35,062 nucleotides of DNA from Clostridiales bacterium (GTDB lineage: Bacteria; Bacillota; Clostridia; Christensenellales; Borkfalkiaceae): the NCBI GenBank assembly GCA_015069485.1, contig SVIM01000019.1, forward strand, positions 1 through 35,062, in the 5' to 3' direction. The translations under genes and the position numbers were made by a program. Below, piece after piece: positions 2,634-17,120 of the stretch (positions are counted from its first letter, which is position 1; every line of letters begins with the position of its first letter). Below the pieces are notes generated by a model, which saw only the letters and a list, made by a program, of their open reading frames with translations, made no database searches and was not told the DNA's origin.

Positions 2634-3731
2634 TTACTTGATTTTACAAGCATTTGCATTTAAATTATCAAGTATTCCCGTATTAATTACGCCTTTTTGG
2701 CTTAAAATAGCGTATCGGTTTTTGGCAACGGCGGCCAAATTGCACAAAAGGCTGGTAAATTGCGAAAAGTTTTCGGTTAAAAGGTAGTGCGAAAGCGAGC
2801 CGGGCACGGTGTTTACCTCGCATAAATACACCTCCCCTTGCGAAATTATGTAATCCATCCTAACAATTCCGTTCATCTCTAAAGCGGTGTAAACCTTTTT
2901 AGTCGTATCCTTAATTTGCGCAGAAATTTGCTCGCTTATTTTTGCGGGGAAGCAGGATGCGCCTCCGCCCGAATATTTATCGTCGTAGCTTAAAAGCTCG
3001 CCAGAGGATAAAACCTCCTCGCACTCGGAAGTAATAACCTCGCTTCCGTTAAAGTAGGCGGCGCAATTAAGCTCCCTGCGACCTTGTAAATATTTTTCTA
3101 AAATTACGGCGTCGTCTAAATAAAGGGCGTTTTGCATAGCCTCGGCAACCTCTTGCTCGGTATGCGCCAAAGCTACGCCTATGCTCGAGCCTAAATTGCG
3201 TGGCTTTACTACTACGGGAAGCCCTATTTTTGCAATTGCTTGGGGGATATCCCCCAACGAATTAACTAATTGCCACGGCGCGCACTTTACGCCCAAGCCG
3301 TTTAAAGCCAGCTTTGTAAAGTATTTATTTATGCACGCCGACGACGAAAAAATGCCCGAGCCGACGAGCGGAATAGAATAAAACGAGCATAGCGACGATA
3401 TTGCACCGCCTTCTTCAATTCCACCGTGGCAACAGTTTATAAGGCACCCAACGCTTATATAATTTTTAATTTTTCCCTTTTTATTTAAAAGGGCAACTCC
3501 CCCTTTAACGAAAATTGCAGGCTGCTTTTTGCTTTGCGCTCCGCTTTTAAAATTGTTAATATCTAAAAGCTCTTCACCGCAAAAAAGGTCGCCCTGCTGG
3601 GAAATATAAAGGGGCAACACGCTTTTTTGCGCGTTTTTTAAAAGATTGCACGCCATTGTACCCGTAATAACCGAAATTTCGTTTTCGCACGATTTACCGC
3701 CGAAAATTACGGCGAACTCAAAAGTTTTAAT
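2634..3731 (-). CDS. ddl: D-alanine--D-alanine ligase, divergent, probable AUU start
   Basis: This ATP-grasp enzyme joins two D-alanines to make the dipeptide that MurF adds to the wall precursor. Family features are FAVIFGGKSCENEISVITG at the N-terminus, HGGIEEGG for the usual HGxxGEDG, PLVGSG, VVVKPRNLGSSIG in the ATP-grasp fold, GIVRMDYI and EVNTVPGS near the end. Several are variant, so the enzyme is a divergent Ddl. The start is unusual. An ideal GGAGGTGAT (3746-3738) precedes no ATG, GTG or TTG; the codon at the right distance is ATT (3731), and starting there gives the N-terminus typical of the family (365 residues). The only common start codon in frame, TTG at 3785, has no ribosome site and adds 18 unlikely residues. 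It follows murF closely. Confidence 0.9.
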   Translation of the reverse strand: MKTFEFAVIFGGKSCENEISVITGTMACNLLKNAQKSVLPLYISQQGDLFCGEELLDINNFKSGAQSKKQPAIFVKGGVALLNKKGKIKNYISVGCLINCCHGGIEEGGAISSLCSFYSIPLVGSGIFSSSACINKYFTKLALNGLGVKCAPWQLVNSLGDIPQAIAKIGLPVVVKPRNLGSSIGVALAHTEQEVAEAMQNALYLDDAVILEKYLQGRRELNCAAYFNGSEVITSECEEVLSSGELLSYDDKYSGGGASCFPAKISEQISAQIKDTTKKVYTALEMNGIVRMDYIISQGEVYLCEVNTVPGSLSHYLLTENFSQFTSLLCNLAAVAKNRYAILSQKGVINTGILDNLNANACKIK

Positions 3732-3795
3732 AAAAAAATCACCTCCGCTTTTATTTTTTAGCTTTGGTGATTTAAAATTATTCAATTTTTTAAAT

Positions 3796-5391
3796 TTATA
3801 AATAAGTGTCGGGCAAGTCGTTTAAAAACAACACGGTATCGCCGGGCTTAATATACGCCTTTAAATATTCCTGCGCGGCGGAAAGGTTAGGCGCTATCTT
3901 TAATTTTTGCTCGTCGCCACCGGCAGAAATATAGCCTTCTTTAACGGCTACTACAAGCGTTTGGCCAACCAAAATAACCAAATCTAAATTGCAAAGCTTT
4001 TCGCCTAAAAGGCGGTTTTCCTGCTTTTCTAAAACGCCTAATTCCACTATTCCGGGGGTTACTGCAATTTTTCTGCCGTCGAATAAATTAAGCACGCCAA
4101 GCGCCGCCTCAGCGCCCTTTACATTGGCGTTATAGCCGTCGTCTAAAATGTTTACTTCGTTAGATTTTATTAACTGCAATCTATGCTCGATATAGTCGGC
4201 TTCCTCAATTGCCCCTATAATATCCTCGATTGAAACGCCAAGCTCAAAGGCTACGGCTGCGGCAAGGGCAAAATTTGTGGCGGTATGCTCGCCTAAAAGC
4301 TTCGTTTTTACCTGCACTTTGTTTTCGCCCAACTGCAAGCAAAATTCCGTTCCGTTTTGGCTTGCAACCACGGACGAGGGGTTATTTATTATAACCTTTT
4401 CCCCAGCAAAATCGCTAAACAAATTAAAATAAGGTTCGGCAATAAAGCACTTTTCTTTAGTGGGGGCAATAATTTCCGCCTTGGTGGAAATTATATTTTC
4501 AACGCTTTCAAAGCTTTGTAAATGTTGGGGGCAAACGCCTGTAATTATTGAATAATCGGGCGGACAAATTTCGCAAAGCTCTTTAATATCGCCCTTATTT
4601 CTCGCGCCCATTTCCGCAATAAAAAAGTCGTATTCGTCCAGGTTGTTTTTGTTAGCGGCAAGCGCAATTCCCATAGGCGTGTTGTGCGAGCGAGGCGTGG
4701 TTAAAACCTTATATTTTTTTTGTAGCATTGCAAAGAGAAGATTTTTTACCGTGGTTTTTGCAAAGCTACCCGTAATGCCAACAACCTTAATTTTGCTTTT
4801 AGAAAGCTTTTCGGTTGCCGACCTTACATACGCCTTATTTTTAGGCTCTTCGTAAATTTTGCAAAGCAAATTACTAAGGCATATTATGGGGTAAATTAAA
4901 AGGGGAAGTACGCTTAATGGAAAGTATCTTAAAGCCGTAAACAAGGGATATTTCCACAGATAATCGGCAAAATTTAAAAGCGTTACTATAATATAGCATA
5001 TAACCGCATACACGAAAAGCGTAACGATAAACAGCCTTTTAAACCTGGGGGTTGCAGCGGTATCTACCTTTAACGCAATTTTAAAATCGGCGCGGATATA
5101 AAGCACCGCAAAAAGCGCAAAGCCGACGAGCGAGATTACGGCAGACCATTGCCCCGCAAACGAAAAGCAAAGAGCGAGCACCGCAGAAGATAAGGCGCAC
5201 ATTGTGGCAAGCAAGGCGTGCCTGCTAAAGCCCAAATTCTCTTTATTTTTTGCCCATTTTATTAACTTTTTTTGGTCGTAACGGAAGGACTGCAATACGC
5301 CGAGCGCCTTATAAGAGGACGCGCCCAAAAGCCCAGTTAGCATAAGGGCAATTAAAATACACTCCACCGTTTTTTCTATGGATATAAACAT
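3796..5391 (-). CDS. murF: Mur ligase (MurF-like) with an N-terminal membrane domain
   Basis: This is probably the ligase that adds D-Ala-D-Ala to the UDP-MurNAc peptide; ddl lies directly downstream. Residues about 8-176 contain roughly five membrane segments. The Mur ligase part starts near 200 with the ATP-binding loop GITGSFAKTT (205-214), then HNTPMG, IAEMGARNKGDI, GVCPQHLQSF, DDGYNAN and LNDLPDTY at the end. Cytosolic MurF proteins are about 450 residues and lack the membrane part, whereas this one has 531. The loop has Ala where MurF usually has Gly before Lys-Thr. The ATG overlaps the end of the hydrolase gene, with GGAG inside the upstream coding sequence, suggesting coupled translation. 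The exact substrate is inferred. Confidence 0.85.
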   Translation of the reverse strand: MFISIEKTVECILIALMLTGLLGASSYKALGVLQSFRYDQKKLIKWAKNKENLGFSRHALLATMCALSSAVLALCFSFAGQWSAVISLVGFALFAVLYIRADFKIALKVDTAATPRFKRLFIVTLFVYAVICYIIVTLLNFADYLWKYPLFTALRYFPLSVLPLLIYPIICLSNLLCKIYEEPKNKAYVRSATEKLSKSKIKVVGITGSFAKTTVKNLLFAMLQKKYKVLTTPRSHNTPMGIALAANKNNLDEYDFFIAEMGARNKGDIKELCEICPPDYSIITGVCPQHLQSFESVENIISTKAEIIAPTKEKCFIAEPYFNLFSDFAGEKVIINNPSSVVASQNGTEFCLQLGENKVQVKTKLLGEHTATNFALAAAVAFELGVSIEDIIGAIEEADYIEHRLQLIKSNEVNILDDGYNANVKGAEAALGVLNLFDGRKIAVTPGIVELGVLEKQENRLLGEKLCNLDLVILVGQTLVVAVKEGYISAGGDEQKLKIAPNLSAAQEYLKAYIKPGDTVLFLNDLPDTYL

Positions 5392-5394
5392 AAT

Positions 5395-6126
5395 TTACTC
5401 CGTTAAATTATCGTTTAAAAATTGCAAAATTAAGTTGTTAAACACTTCGGGATACTCGCAAAAGCAAAAATGCGTGCCTTGCATTTTTAAAAGACGGGAA
5501 TTTTTTATACAGCCTTTAAAAATTAAGCCCTCCTCCAAATACGGCGTAACGGTATCGCCCTCGCCGTAAATTAAAAGGGTTTCGTTGCTTATTTTTTTTG
5601 CTTCTTCCTGCAAATCCTCGTTAACGATTTTTTTATAGCTTTCGCGCATTATGGGCGAAAGAGTTTTATATTCCTCGCTTCCAAAGTGCCTTTCGGCAAA
5701 TTTAGGAAATATCTTTTTTATGCGCTTATAAGCGTTTACCCGCCTAATATATTGCGACGAACGGAGCTTTACTACGCCTGCGCCGCCAACCAACACAATT
5801 TTTTTAGCGCTGAAATTAAAGCTTGATAAAAGCTTTATTGCTACCCTTGCGCCAAACGAGTGCGCAACGACGTGCGGATTTTTAACCTTTAATTTTTTAC
5901 ATAAGGTATAAGTCCACTCGGCGTAATCGCTCACCGAAAAGGCGGTGCTTGGCGCTTGACTTTTACCAAAGCCGGCAAAGTCGGGCGCGGTTACCTTAAA
6001 GCCCTTGCAAAGGCTTTCCGTTTGATAAAAAAAGCTTTCCTTTTGCGACATATAGCCGTGCAAAAGCAAAATATCTTCGCCTTCTCCCTTTTGTAAAACG
6101 CTTACGAATTTACCGTTTATTAAAAT
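5395..6126 (-). CDS. Alpha/beta hydrolase, probable AUU start
   Basis: A serine hydrolase of the alpha/beta fold. Visible parts are the oxyanion motif LLLHGY, the nucleophile elbow AHSFGA, the acid in YGEGDTVTP and the histidine in GTHFCF. The substrate is unknown; placement before murF and ddl suggests a role at the cell envelope. The first common in-frame start is TTG (6069), which would cut off the first beta strands. Coding sequence continues upstream as LINGKFVSVLQKGEGEDI, as expected for the family, back to an ATT at 6126. This ATT lies 6 nt after AAGGAG (6138-6133). With this start the protein has 243 residues. There is no ATG, GTG or TTG between 6126 and 6070 in frame. Confidence 0.85.
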   Translation of the reverse strand: MLINGKFVSVLQKGEGEDILLLHGYMSQKESFFYQTESLCKGFKVTAPDFAGFGKSQAPSTAFSVSDYAEWTYTLCKKLKVKNPHVVAHSFGARVAIKLLSSFNFSAKKIVLVGGAGVVKLRSSQYIRRVNAYKRIKKIFPKFAERHFGSEEYKTLSPIMRESYKKIVNEDLQEEAKKISNETLLIYGEGDTVTPYLEEGLIFKGCIKNSRLLKMQGTHFCFCEYPEVFNNLILQFLNDNLTE

Positions 6127-6174
6127 ATTAAGCTCCTTAAAGCGCCCAAATTTTTTGCGCTTTTTTGCGTAAAT

Positions 6175-6609
6175 TTAGGTTAAATCCTTACGCATAACAA
6201 GGCAATCCTCGCCGTCAGGATAGTAGCGCGCGCGTGCGTACGCCCCCACAAAGCCGTGCTTTAAATACATTAGCATTGCCGGCGAATTAGAAACCCTTAC
6301 CTCTAAAAACACCTTATCCGCCCCCTTTTCTTTTGCAAGGAGCAAAAGGCTTTTAAGAATTTGCGAGCCTACGCCACCCCTTCGAAAGGAATTGCCAACG
6401 GCAACGTTTTCGATATCGGCAGAATCAGCGACTACCGTTACTGCGCCGTAGCCTAAAATTTCGCCGTTCTCTTCGGCGACAAGCAAATTAAAGGTTGGAT
6501 TTTTAAAGGATGATTCAAAGTTTTGCAAGCTCCAACCGTCTGTAAAGCACTCCTTTTCCAGCGCAAAAACCCTTTCTATATCGCCGTTACACCACTTTCT
6601 AATTATCAT
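6175..6609 (-). CDS. rimI: Ribosomal protein S18-alanine N-acetyltransferase-like GNAT protein
   Basis: A single GNAT acetyltransferase domain of 144 residues. The acetyl-CoA loop is FRRGGVGSQIL, followed by KVFLEVRVSNSPAMLMYLKHGF, a stretch typical of RimI. RimI acetylates the N-terminus of ribosomal protein S18, though members of this family can have other protein targets. The ATG overlaps the tsaB stop codon by 4 bases. Genes of the tsaE-tsaB-rimI(-tsaD) set are often adjacent, which supports the call; tsaD is not here. Confidence 0.85.
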   Translation of the reverse strand: MIIRKWCNGDIERVFALEKECFTDGWSLQNFESSFKNPTFNLLVAEENGEILGYGAVTVVADSADIENVAVGNSFRRGGVGSQILKSLLLLAKEKGADKVFLEVRVSNSPAMLMYLKHGFVGAYARARYYPDGEDCLVMRKDLT

Positions 6610-7214
6610 TTTCTGCCTTCCTCTGCTTGACTCTTTCTTACGTACAAGGCGTAAATATCGTCCGTTAAAGGGCGTTCAATACGGCATAGTGTGGGGTGAA
6701 TTAAATTTTGAACTTCAAGCTTCGTATAATTTTCAAAATGTAAATCTTCAATGCCGAAGACGGGAAGATTAAATAAAGCCACCTCTTCTTCAGAAAGATA
6801 GCAAGGGGCAAGCGTGCACCTTTCGCCGTCGTAAACAGAAGCGTAGTAATGATTATGGGCAGCGTCGATAACGGCAACGAACTTTTCGCATTTTACATTA
6901 TATGCAATTAAGTCAAACGCCGTTACACCCAAAAGCTTTTTGCCTGCGCCCATAGCAAGCCCCTTTGCCGTTGCTATACCTATTCTTATGCCCGTAAACG
7001 AGCCGGGGCCCGTTACCGCACAAAAAAAGTCGCACTCGTTAGGGGATAGTTGGGCTTCTTCCATCGCTTTATCGATTTCGCCCATCAAGGTTACAGAGTG
7101 GGAAAGAGCGCAGTCTTGAATAAACCTTAACACGACCTTTTCGCCCTTTTGCGCCAAAACGGTTAGGTGCTTGGAGGAGGTATCGATAGCCAAAAAATTT
7201 TTATATTCAGTCAT
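6606..7214 (-). CDS. tsaB: tRNA threonylcarbamoyladenosine biosynthesis protein TsaB
   Basis: TsaB is the partner of TsaD in making t6A at position 37 of ANN-reading tRNAs. It has an ASKHA-like fold without catalytic activity of its own. Visible are FLAIDTSSKHLTVL at the start, SHSVTLM and the strongly conserved VTGPGSFTGIRIGIATAKGL. The second half is shorter and more variable, giving 202 residues in all, within the family range. The ATG overlaps the end of tsaE by 8 bases. Confidence 0.95.
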   Translation of the reverse strand: MTEYKNFLAIDTSSKHLTVLAQKGEKVVLRFIQDCALSHSVTLMGEIDKAMEEAQLSPNECDFFCAVTGPGSFTGIRIGIATAKGLAMGAGKKLLGVTAFDLIAYNVKCEKFVAVIDAAHNHYYASVYDGERCTLAPCYLSEEEVALFNLPVFGIEDLHFENYTKLEVQNLIHPTLCRIERPLTDDIYALYVRKSQAEEGRK

Positions 7215-7611
7215 AAATAATCTCCCTTATATCTTCGCCCTTTTTAATTATGTTAACCGTTTTGCAGTTTGCAGGCAACACGGAAGCAATGTTTTTGCTC
7301 CACTCTATAAGGCAAACGCCGTTGCCGTAAAAATAGTCGCAAAGCCCTAACGCTTCGGCTTGTTCACCGCAAGAAAGGCGGTAACAATCGTAATGATACA
7401 GCTTGCCCGAATAGTCGTTCATATAGGCATATGTGGGGCTTAATACCTCTTCTTCAATGCCCAAGCCCTTGGCAACGCCCTTGGCAAAAACCGTTTTGCC
7501 TGCGCCCATATCGCCACCGAGAAGAACCACGTCGCCCCCCTTAAGCGTCTTTGCGTATTCAGTTGCAAATAAAAGCGTTTCGTTCGCGCTTTTAGAAATA
7601 AAACTTTTCAT
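7207..7611 (-). CDS. tsaE: tRNA threonylcarbamoyladenosine biosynthesis ATPase TsaE
   Basis: TsaE is the small P-loop ATPase that supports turnover of the TsaB-TsaD complex in t6A synthesis. The Walker A loop is GGDMGAGKT (residues 32-40). LSPTYAYM, HYDCYRL and CLIEWSKN follow in the family order. At 134 residues it is slightly short, as is common. It is the first gene of a tight minus-strand run ending with ddl. No ideal promoter is obvious in the 150 bp upstream, which also hold the mntR terminator. Confidence 0.95.
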   Translation of the reverse strand: MKSFISKSANETLLFATEYAKTLKGGDVVLLGGDMGAGKTVFAKGVAKGLGIEEEVLSPTYAYMNDYSGKLYHYDCYRLSCGEQAEALGLCDYFYGNGVCLIEWSKNIASVLPANCKTVNIIKKGEDIREIIYD

Positions 7612-15174: not shown

Positions 15175-15921
15175 TTAAAATTTTTTAATTTTTTTAACTT
15201 TTTTTGCAGATATTTTGTTATTTACCCTTAAAAGCGCTATTGCGCAAGTAAAACAGCTTATGCAAATTATAAACTGAACTATTATAACCACTATAAACTG
15301 GTTTAAAAGAATTGATGCCACAACCAAAATTATATGTAATACGGCAAGCGACAAAAAGCATACCTGCGCTTTATAAACGCTTGGAAGGGCCGTAGCTTTG
15401 TTCAATAAAAAATCGGCTACGCCGTAGGCTGCTTTATGCAAATTTTTTATTGCTACTCGGCAAAAAAAGGCGTAGGCACAAACGACGCAAATAAACGCAA
15501 CGGCAACCCAAAGATGATAACCGCTTATAAGTAATAAAAAACTTAACGAAAGCAAGATTATTAATATAACGAAGGCGACGTTTTCTAGCGCATTTAATAA
15601 AGTTGCCAGGCGTTTTAGCGCAAATATTATGCGGTTATTGCCTTTTACTGCATAACGATATATTTGCCACGCAAAAACGAGCAATACGCTGTAAAAGAAA
15701 AGCGGGAATATATATAAAGGAATAACCGTTACTAATAAAAACAATATAACAGTATTCCAAGTAAATTCGTGCTCGGTAAGGGGCTGAACGAGGTAAAGCA
15801 CGTTAAAATAAAATATTAATATAAAAATACCCGCTAATAAAGTTAGCGTAGAAAGTATGCAAATTAACAAATAATTTTTACTTTTAAATGCGTTTAGCAC
15901 GTCTTGTACTTTTACTTCCAT
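15175..15921 (-). CDS. Six-helix membrane protein of unknown function
   Basis: The 248-residue product has hydrophobic segments at about 17-45, 55-88, 112-133, 136-156, 184-205 and 207-232, and a very basic tail (KISAKKVKKIKKF) that should face the cytoplasm. No conserved motif is recognised. The start is ATG after AAGGGGG, 20 nt from the predicted transcription start. It is transcribed away from the small RNA gene at 16074 from a back-to-back promoter. Confidence 0.8.
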   Translation of the reverse strand: MEVKVQDVLNAFKSKNYLLICILSTLTLLAGIFILIFYFNVLYLVQPLTEHEFTWNTVILFLLVTVIPLYIFPLFFYSVLLVFAWQIYRYAVKGNNRIIFALKRLATLLNALENVAFVILIILLSLSFLLLISGYHLWVAVAFICVVCAYAFFCRVAIKNLHKAAYGVADFLLNKATALPSVYKAQVCFLSLAVLHIILVVASILLNQFIVVIIVQFIICISCFTCAIALLRVNNKISAKKVKKIKKF

Positions 15922-15976: not shown

Positions 15977-16039
15977 TAGCGTATTTTAGTAAAAAAATCA
16001 CACGCCGCTATTTTTTTATAAAAATTTTCTCCTTAAGTC

Positions 16040-16067
16040 TTGACATTTTAAAATTGTGCGATATAAT
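16040..16067 (+). promoter_or_regulatory. Promoter of the small RNA
   Basis: TTGACA (16040-16045), a 16-bp spacer and TATAAT (16062-16067), both boxes perfect. Transcription should start near G16074. No open reading frame follows. Confidence 0.85.
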
Positions 16068-16073
16068 TTTATT

Positions 16074-16187
16074 GTTTTTATTTAAAGTCAAGCGGAGAGC
16101 GTAGGCAGGTTGTTTGCTCTTTGTCCGCTTAACTTGCTTATTATAGCCGTTCGTTTTTTTCTATGTATGCGAACGGCTATTTTTTTA
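16074..16187 (+). ncRNA. Orphan structured small RNA with its own promoter and terminator
   Basis: The predicted transcript is about 114 nt. Stem 1 pairs AAGTCAAGCGGA (16085-16096) with TCCGCTTAACTT (16124-16135), 11 of 12 positions. Inside it GAGC (16097-16100) pairs with GCTC (16116-16119) around the 15-nt loop gtaggcaggttgttt. After a short linker comes an intrinsic terminator, an 11-bp perfect stem (16143-16153 with 16170-16180) followed by eight T. No start codon with a ribosome site is seen. It lacks the SRP RNA GGAAGCAG core and is too short for 6S RNA, tmRNA or RNase P RNA. No gene lies downstream on this strand, so it is not an obvious riboswitch. Its role, perhaps a trans-acting regulator, is unknown. 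Confidence 0.75.
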
Positions 16188-16240
16188 TCGATTATTTAGT
16201 TATGTAATGGATTAAATCAGGTATTTGTTGTGCCGTCCAT

Positions 16241-16412
16241 CCTAACCCTATGCAAAGAGATTCTTCGCCGTTGGCTCAGAATGACAGTATAATTGCCGTT
16301 CGCCTAACCCTGCGCAAAGAGATTCTTCGCCGTTGGCTCAGAATGACAGCATAATTGCCGTTCGCCTAACCCTGCGCAAAAAGATTCTTCGCCGTTGGCT
16401 CAGAATGACAGT
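16241..16412. repeat. 62-bp tandem repeat, about 2.8 copies
   Basis: Units start at 16241, 16303 and 16365 with CCTAACCC. Each contains GATTCTTCGCCGTTGGCTC followed by AGAATGACAG. The core TTCTTCGCC-GTTGGC-TCAGAATGA resembles a dispersed, partly palindromic intergenic repeat that I remember from many bacterial genomes (TCATTCTGAG...GAAGAATC). Degenerate pieces (TGCCGTCC) continue to about 16535. The 420 bp from 16190 to 16613 hold no gene that I can support; small plus-strand frames here are repeat translations. Confidence 0.9.
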
Positions 16413-16559: not shown

Positions 16560-16595
16560 AAAAAAACTGCGGTGCTTAATGCGCCGCAGTTTTTT
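16560..16595 (-). terminator. Terminator of the ribosomal protein operon
   Basis: AACTGCGGTGC (16565-16575) pairs with GCGCCGCAGTT (16581-16591) with one G-T pair. Seven T follow on the minus strand. It lies just after rplQ, the last gene of the cluster. Confidence 0.85.
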
Positions 16596-16613: not shown

Positions 16614-17120
16614 TTAAACTAATTCGATAATTGCTTCTTCAGCAGCGTCGCCGCGTCTTTCACCTAAAAGGTAAATACGGGTGTAGCCGCCGCCCTGACC
16701 GAGTTCTTCGGCACGCTGTGCGTATTTAGGAGCAATTTCGTTGAACAACTTTTCCATTAAGGGGTGCTTAATGTCTTGAGTTCTTGCTTTATAGTCGGAC
16801 TTCTTTTCGTTAAAGCCCTTAATTTCTTGTAAGTCGCGAAGCTTTGCCATTAAAGCACGGCGTACTGCAAGCTTTTTGGGGGAATCTTTAAGTACTTTTA
16901 CGGTAATATCCTTACCTTTTTTGTCCTGTTTTACTATTTCTTTTTCTTCGTTCAAGTCGTAAACTTTGATTGCTTTGGTGATGATTTTTTCAACATAGGG
17001 CTGAAGTTCTTTTGCCTTTGCAGCCGTAGTTTTAATTTTGCCGTACCAAAGGAGTTCCGAAGCCTGATTTCTGAGTAATGCAATTCTCTGTTGAGTGGTT
17101 CTTCCTAATTTACCGGGCAT
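16614..17120 (-). CDS. rplQ: 50S ribosomal protein L17
   Basis: The N-terminus (GKLGRTTQQRIALLRNQASELLWYGKIKTT) and the C-terminus (RIYLLGERRGDAAEEAIIELV) are typical L17. The protein has 168 residues, against about 120 in Bacillus. The extra length is a lysine-rich stretch near 55-85 and another near 95-120 (FNEKKSDYKARTQDI). It starts 3 bp after rpoA and is the last gene before the terminator. Confidence 0.97.
   Translation of the reverse strand: MPGKLGRTTQQRIALLRNQASELLWYGKIKTTAAKAKELQPYVEKIITKAIKVYDLNEEKEIVKQDKKGKDITVKVLKDSPKKLAVRRALMAKLRDLQEIKGFNEKKSDYKARTQDIKHPLMEKLFNEIAPKYAQRAEELGQGGGYTRIYLLGERRGDAAEEAIIELV

Follow-up and report, generated by a model that had tools for sequence, protein, structure and literature searches.

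A small RNA gene of a Clostridiales bacterium, probably an orphan copy of an antisense RNA of mobile elements

The window, a stretch of 35,062 nucleotides that forms one contig (C18) of the 1.52-Mb, 46-contig genome of a Clostridiales bacterium, carries a predicted small RNA gene on its plus strand. The promoter of this gene (TTGACA-16-TATAAT, 16040..16067) agrees with the consensus at 12 of 12 positions, has both hexamers unchanged in a second copy of the gene, and was equalled in quality by 0 of 300 shuffles of the upstream region. The RNA would be about 114 nt in length (16074..16187), with its ends placed from the -10 box and the T run. When folded, the RNA forms a hairpin (16085-16135), situated in a core (16085..16138) and capped by the 15-nt loop GUAGGCAGGUUGUUU (16101..16115). 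The hairpin is followed by a terminator (16143..16186) that was recognized from sequence and fold and is composed of a stem (16143-16153 paired with 16170-16180), a 16-nt loop and seven T after the stem. This terminator was missing from our scan for hairpins and terminators because its loop exceeds the length accepted by the scan. The fold of 16074-16187 was calculated at -39.3 kcal/mol compared to a shuffle mean of -22.4 (sd 3.1; z -5.4), and with the terminator omitted the z value was -3.4. Extra weak pairs within the 15-nt loop were present in the minimum-energy fold; thus, a fully open loop is one form among several. The loop and its complement may resemble stretches of 16S rRNA. In the ORF list of the window, no ORF of at least 60 aa was found to overlap 16040-16187. 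Searches of the whole window against Rfam 15 returned 0 matches at gathering score, and a relaxed scan around the gene gave matches that were all below this score, with nothing credible among them. The preliminary description had proposed a small RNA gene standing alone, with perfect promoter boxes, a long hairpin with a 15-nt loop and a terminator, devoid of a reading frame and unlike the common RNA classes it considered, and on the sequence it was borne out in each of these respects.

The neighbors of the RNA gene, an ORF at 16614-17120 that we take to be rplQ and an ORF at 15175-15921, are both on the minus strand, opposite to the RNA gene. The L17 downstream element, which sits in the rplQ 3' UTR on the same strand as rplQ, was considered and rejected, as the RNA is on the plus strand, rplQ is on the minus strand, and there is no Rfam match. 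A strong terminator-like hairpin of 15 pairs (16561-16595) was observed between a 62-bp repeat array and the end of rplQ. Since A and T runs flank this hairpin, it could serve rplQ on the minus strand.

A second complete copy of the gene was detected by Blast in the same genome (G000:C37:65518-65669, 84% identity over 152 bases), adjoining an ORF that we assume to be pyrH. The two copies align from about 27 bases upstream of the -35 box through the terminator. Within this alignment, the core was identical at 54 of 54 positions, compared to 23 differences in the 82 other positions (spacer, 5' part and terminator region; Fisher p 2.6e-6), which argues that the core has been under selection since the copies separated; this selection perhaps acted within an element, prior to capture. 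On the minus strand at 16013..16039, at the position where the following gene starts in the relatives, we found what appears to be a remnant of that gene. This remnant includes a sequence similar to a ribosome site (AAGGAG, 16029-16034) and has lost its start codon; 23 of its 27 bases are kept in the second copy, where ATG and 13 codons are retained. Directly behind the terminator, also on the minus strand, is the remnant of a convergent small ORF (16192..16251) that reads IGLGWTAQQIPDLIHYITK up to the stop (compare MNLFAVQRLREYLLGKGWTANEILDLLDYITK in the relative L089). About the last 15 codons of this reading come from the element, and the remainder overlaps the repeat array. The array itself (16241-16412; a 62-bp unit, ...AAAGAGATTCTTCGCCGTTGGCTCAGAATGACAG..., present 2.8 times with 95% matches) starts where the element remnant stops and may have cut the small ORF. 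Both loci of this genome are, to judge by these pieces, remnants of an element of which chiefly the RNA gene survives. We consider it somewhat unlikely that the window copy is a dead leftover of an element, with a promoter that has not worn away yet. Such a leftover agrees with the remnants of element genes on both sides, and the searches that did not find the gene in other genomes of the genus (below) would allow a recent capture, but both loci retain little except the RNA gene, with a 12/12 promoter and an identical core. The latter point is weakened in that the selection behind the kept core and promoter may predate the capture.

Searches for relatives brought the family to 11 RNA gene copies in eight genomes and two viral contigs, with two copies here, seven in other genomes and two in IMG/VR contigs. 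The 19-base loop, searched as an exact match together with its closing pairs, was found in three records among 84,980 species, a collection from which records of this genome were possibly left out; each of the three was a Clostridia MAG obtained from the gut of roe deer. With these three copies and the two here, a covariance model was built, and it detected further copies in G402, G501, G462 and G1306. Searches with the leader of the small ORF (described below) gave 23 + 2 stretches, and the one of these 25 that had both a small ORF and a loop complement led to the IMG/VR contig L184 (the same contig as L205). A protein near the RNA in L184 led in turn to a second IMG/VR contig, L208; among six contigs related to this neighbor protein, a match to model R3 was present in two (L205 and L208).

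The preliminary description had advised a comparison of homologous regions downstream of rplQ, but a host-lineage RNA linked to rplQ was not borne out. Model R1, built from the two near-identical copies of this genome, found no accepted copy in the 92 other genomes of the genus (93 searched), and the relatives were located in the regulatory regions of phages and mobile elements. R1 scores the divergent L089 copy at just 27.8 bits, and thus divergent copies in the genus could be missed. At E <= 0.1, R1 also matched seven further genomes of the genus, with a top score of 32 bits; these matches were dropped, and when rescored with model R2 they reached 18.4 to 28.6 bits, and the alignments of the three examined (L081, L082 and L086 of the seven) cover the terminator. 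By Blast of the 155-bp gene against 101 genomes, 46 matched at E <= 0.1, with long matches only for the two copies here. A 21-base pattern allowing up to 3 mismatches was found in this genome and nine others of 297; the nine other loci gave one R2 match at E <= 0.1 (L045, 16.4 bits) and were dropped. A model search of 151 genomes gave 13 matches, with six kept and L098-L104 dropped (the alignments of L098-L100 skip the loop, and L101-L104 are weak), and another search of 151 genomes returned the same 13 places. In a search of 391 genomes two matched, of which this genome was kept and L167 dropped; in 395 genomes, matches were confined to G381 and G501; and in 394 genomes nine matched, of which six were kept and L098, L169 and L170 dropped. 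L170, which retains GGCAGG at a hairpin-like position and scores 22.8 bits, may be distantly related.

Among viral contigs, the 19-base loop was found 0 times. The 15-base loop occurred there in 56 stretches, with a best R2 E value of 0.046 and a best closing run of 4 pairs, and none was kept. The gene DNA had one partial match to phages (E 0.04) and none to plasmids, and the small ORF, searched as protein, matched neither phages nor plasmids. Viral contig L196 was observed to have the leader and a broken small ORF (about 5160-5200) and, separately, a hairpin-terminator (4432-4514) that is a weak R3 match devoid of the loop. A description of the RNA family was not found in the open-access literature (most subscription journals lie outside this scope), and the matches listed for the loop core GGCAGGUUGU, searched as letters, were all unrelated.

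The strongest support for the predicted RNA gene of the window is comparative: 11 copies with a promoter, and compensatory changes in the stem. In the 10 copies aligned (alignment A9, fitted to the model), 91.0% of cells over 22 pairs can pair, compared to 41-47% when the partner is slid, and both sides have changed in 16 of the 22 pairs. Covariance analysis of homologues, a kind of check advised by the preliminary description, backs the pairing of the core. Four of five measures of the alignment exceeded all 500 shuffles, and the fifth (further pair types) was reached by 102 of 500. Because the alignment was fitted to the model, the arms of nine copies were also cross-paired as a separate test. 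By this approach, 5' and 3' arms of the same copy paired with a mean of -18.2 kcal/mol compared to -10.4 kcal/mol for foreign arms, although single foreign pairs reach -18.0 kcal/mol and thus equal own pairs in strength. A promoter with at least 9 of 12 consensus positions is present in all 11 copies, with the -10 box ending 17-34 nt upstream of the loop and a T run 81-113 nt downstream of the inferred start; the promoters of L105 and L179 are unexceptional when taken alone (a promoter of that quality arose in 33 and 19 of 300 shuffles). The terminator stems of the relatives are of the GCCGUUCG type or the GCCGUCC type. All 11 copies carry the loop core GGCAGGUUGU unchanged, on stems that differ; in the G402 copy the pair closing the loop has changed from C-G to U-A. 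This constancy is in part hit selection, since the exact loop served as the query for three copies and is favored by the models. Taken together, these comparisons show a family of predicted RNAs with a promoter, a covarying stem, a constant loop core and a terminator across 11 copies.

A constant loop on varying stems, together with two copies in this genome that have intact promoters outside any intact element, could be read as a host regulatory RNA that acts on host mRNAs via its loop, with the loop mirroring a conserved host partner (RNA or protein). We regard this as distinctly unlikely, given that R1 had no copy in the 92 other genomes of the genus and that few of the sites complementary to the loop lie close to a possible gene start. 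With up to 3 mismatches to the loop complement allowed, 34 sites were counted in the host genome (own two genes included) compared to 25 for the reversed pattern, and of the 32 outside the two genes, 28 were inspected and 4 had a possible start codon within 45 nt. Thus, of the earlier proposal that the loop is important and could bind mRNAs, the importance is upheld by the constant core and the binding of host mRNAs is not upheld by these counts. As there is no clear host target, the near-complements fit action on incoming elements, or no action.

The genes around the copies were compared. In L109 (G501), one strand encodes a serine-type integrase, a CI-like repressor and a DUF4145 gene, and the other a 36-codon ORF, a Cro/CI-type HTH protein, a Gam-like protein, an exonuclease, an SSB and replication genes; the RNA gene lies opposite the latter strand, after the 36-codon ORF and before the Cro/CI-type HTH gene. 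Similarly, one strand of L184 encodes an integrase and two repressors (a CI-like one and a further HTH repressor), after which come the small ORF, the oppositely oriented RNA gene, and genes for a Cro-like HTH protein, an Erf-like annealing protein and an SSB. By their gene content, L109 and L184 are recognizable temperate phages in which the predicted RNA lies opposite the early operon, between an ORF of about 36 codons and a Cro-like gene. The RNA was likewise opposite, between the small ORF and the next gene, in L088, L089, L090, L096, L168 and L184. An IS30-family transposase was found near the RNA in L088 and L168, a relative of the L088 transposase (75% identical) in L090, and a tyrosine recombinase near the RNA in L089.

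Five of the small ORFs were aligned and have a K-G-W motif in common. The small ORF matched no family at the Pfam cut-off, and its best PHROG match, a transcriptional regulator, was at E 0.0054; that of G402 looks frameshifted. A small DnaJ-like protein was observed after the RNA in L088 (3599-4087) and L090 (1849-2340). The two proteins are 92% identical to each other, with a weak DnaJ match under the Pfam cut-off and a match to phrog_15863 at 9e-31. In L089, a tyrosine recombinase, a P-loop ATPase and an HUH-type Rep recognized by motif surround the RNA (3000-7540), and from the Zot-like ATPase and the HUH-type Rep motifs this locus is perhaps a filamentous-phage-like element or inovirus. 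The ATPase and Rep had no fitting family match, and the structure model (mean pLDDT 36) was of no use. The L089 ATPase was found in one of three genomes searched, and no relative of it or of the L088 DnaJ-like protein was confirmed in viral contigs.

The small ORF is preceded, just upstream of its start codon, by a leader AAGGCAGGU(U)AAAGGA in L106, L107, L108, L109, L179 and L205, and by the same motif with G replacing the last A in L208. The leader motif is therefore found in 7 of the 9 copies outside this genome, L105 and L110 being without it. Loop and leader have AGGCAGGU in common, in the same sense, in L106, L107, L108, L109, L205 and L208, and GGCAGGU in L179. The pattern AGGCAGGTN{0,2}AAGG was found in eight places in eight genomes, of which five are beside the RNA and one of the other three is inside a gene of this genome. 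The reversed pattern was found 23 times, and thus the leader pattern is not frequent as such; its position is the striking part. The duplex of the leader with the loop complement was calculated to have 7-9 pairs and -13.8 to -16.1 kcal/mol in five loci, and of 500 shuffled leaders between 0 and 5 did as well. For L179, a different stretch of the mRNA gives stronger pairing with the loop complement (-17.0). Covariation between leader and loop was not seen, and L179 has an altered loop together with an unaltered leader. The leader motif was also observed repeated in the same direction in L205 (3654 and 4160) and L208 (3142, 3647 and 4140). The repeats of L205 flank an HTH repressor gene, as if immunity modules were swapped at the motif, and in L208 a truncated small ORF follows the motif at 3647.

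This sharing of sequence bears on two further explanations. The first is a type I toxin-antitoxin system, in which the ORF of about 36 codons would encode the toxin, the convergent RNA would be the antitoxin, and the orphans would shield their host when new copies enter. The arrangement seen is indeed that of a small ORF and, adjacent to its 3' end, a convergent antisense RNA, but the peptides have no membrane-spanning stretch by inspection, the RNA has the same sequence as the leader and not its complement, and the gene order of a phage early operon accounts for the neighbors; we find this explanation very unlikely. The second, which we hold to be just as improbable, is a sponge, in which the loop would mimic the leader of the small ORF and titrate away a leader-binding factor, either protein or RNA, as the same-sense identity of loop and leader in six loci and in L179 could suggest. 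To our knowledge no such factor has been described, and a complement within the mRNA itself is the simpler partner.

In our judgment, there is a fair probability that the window gene is an orphan copy of a mobile-element antisense RNA. Since members of the RNA family in other genomes are found in control regions of phages and mobile elements, the window gene probably represents viral control machinery that was captured in part, as opposed to an ordinary RNA of the host. The RNA would pair with the intercistronic part of the early mRNA, with a loop-loop contact formed first, and this pairing would lower the expression of the genes there and favor the quiet (lysogenic) state. Because the RNA loop equals the leader sequence AGGCAGGU, the loop complement on the mRNA (ACCUGCC) could pair with its own leader or with the antisense RNA, and the antisense RNA would compete with the leader for this site, provided that the early mRNA runs through. 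As ACCUGCC pairs either way, the RNA would set a switch between two states of the mRNA. The chromosomal orphans would act in trans on incoming relatives, or may be leftovers. From sequence, we infer the transcription, the target and the trans immunity of the RNA. Counting against the antisense reading is that a purely cis-acting antisense RNA need not hold its loop constant across elements. We propose very tentatively, as an idea that is unlikely but worth stating, that these antisense RNAs form a lysogeny-switch family in which the constant loop is a copy of the leader preceding the first early ORF, with a three-way competition of leader, mRNA loop and antisense loop, common to tailed phages and transposase-bearing elements of gut Clostridia and kept by bacteria as RNA immunity genes against any incoming element with the same loop.

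Known systems offer points of comparison. OOP RNA of phage lambda is described as a small RNA with its own promoter and terminator opposite the early operon, near a lysogeny regulator (PMC5869508), with a length of 77 nt (PMC12197685). The family described here is like OOP in having its own promoter and terminator and in its position on the strand opposite the early operon. By contrast, OOP overlaps the end of cII, whereas the present RNAs are between the small first ORF and a Cro-like gene; a sequence relation of OOP to the window RNA was not found by Rfam. In phage P22, the gene for sar RNA is located between arc and ant. The sar RNA is described as an antisense RNA of 68/69 nt in the immunity region that pairs with ant mRNA (PMC2629481, PMC12197685). 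The present family differs in the genes concerned, with no antirepressor seen here, and no sequence relation to sar was found. A location opposite an early operon, as for OOP and sar, was found in L109 and L184 and, by remnants only, for the window copy; a short RNA with its own promoter and terminator is predicted for all 11 copies.

The C4-like RNAs of Acinetobacter baumannii number 21 similar sRNAs in the chromosome, for which the authors propose action on incoming phage or new host targets (PMC5320573). Together with these C4-like RNAs, the C4 RNA of P1/P7 resembles the present family as a phage immunity RNA with copies in a bacterial chromosome, but C4 has three stem-loops and is excised by RNase P, whereas the window RNA has one hairpin and a terminator and its own promoter. 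With one hairpin plus terminator and no Rfam match, the window RNA was rejected as a C4 antisense RNA. In the I-complex plasmids, the competing site precedes the downstream replication gene. RNAI, or Inc RNA, of these plasmids is an antisense RNA whose hairpin makes a kissing complex on the target mRNA (PMC10724649). RNAI controls a replication gene, whereas the shared motif here is upstream, before the first small ORF. Membership in the RNAI class was rejected, as the next gene here is Cro-like (L109, L184) or of no assigned function.

An RNA family absent from Rfam would join the small set of phage antisense RNAs, from gut bacteria whose phages are little studied, and would provide a case, beside the C4-like RNAs of Acinetobacter, of immunity-region RNAs standing alone in a chromosome. 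The sequence shared by loop and small-ORF leader makes for a specific proposal of a switch, and the orphans raise the question of whether captured phage RNAs protect bacteria. Most likely, the family regulates the early operon by an antisense mechanism that starts with a loop contact and is comparable to those of OOP, sar, C4 and the plasmid RNAI.
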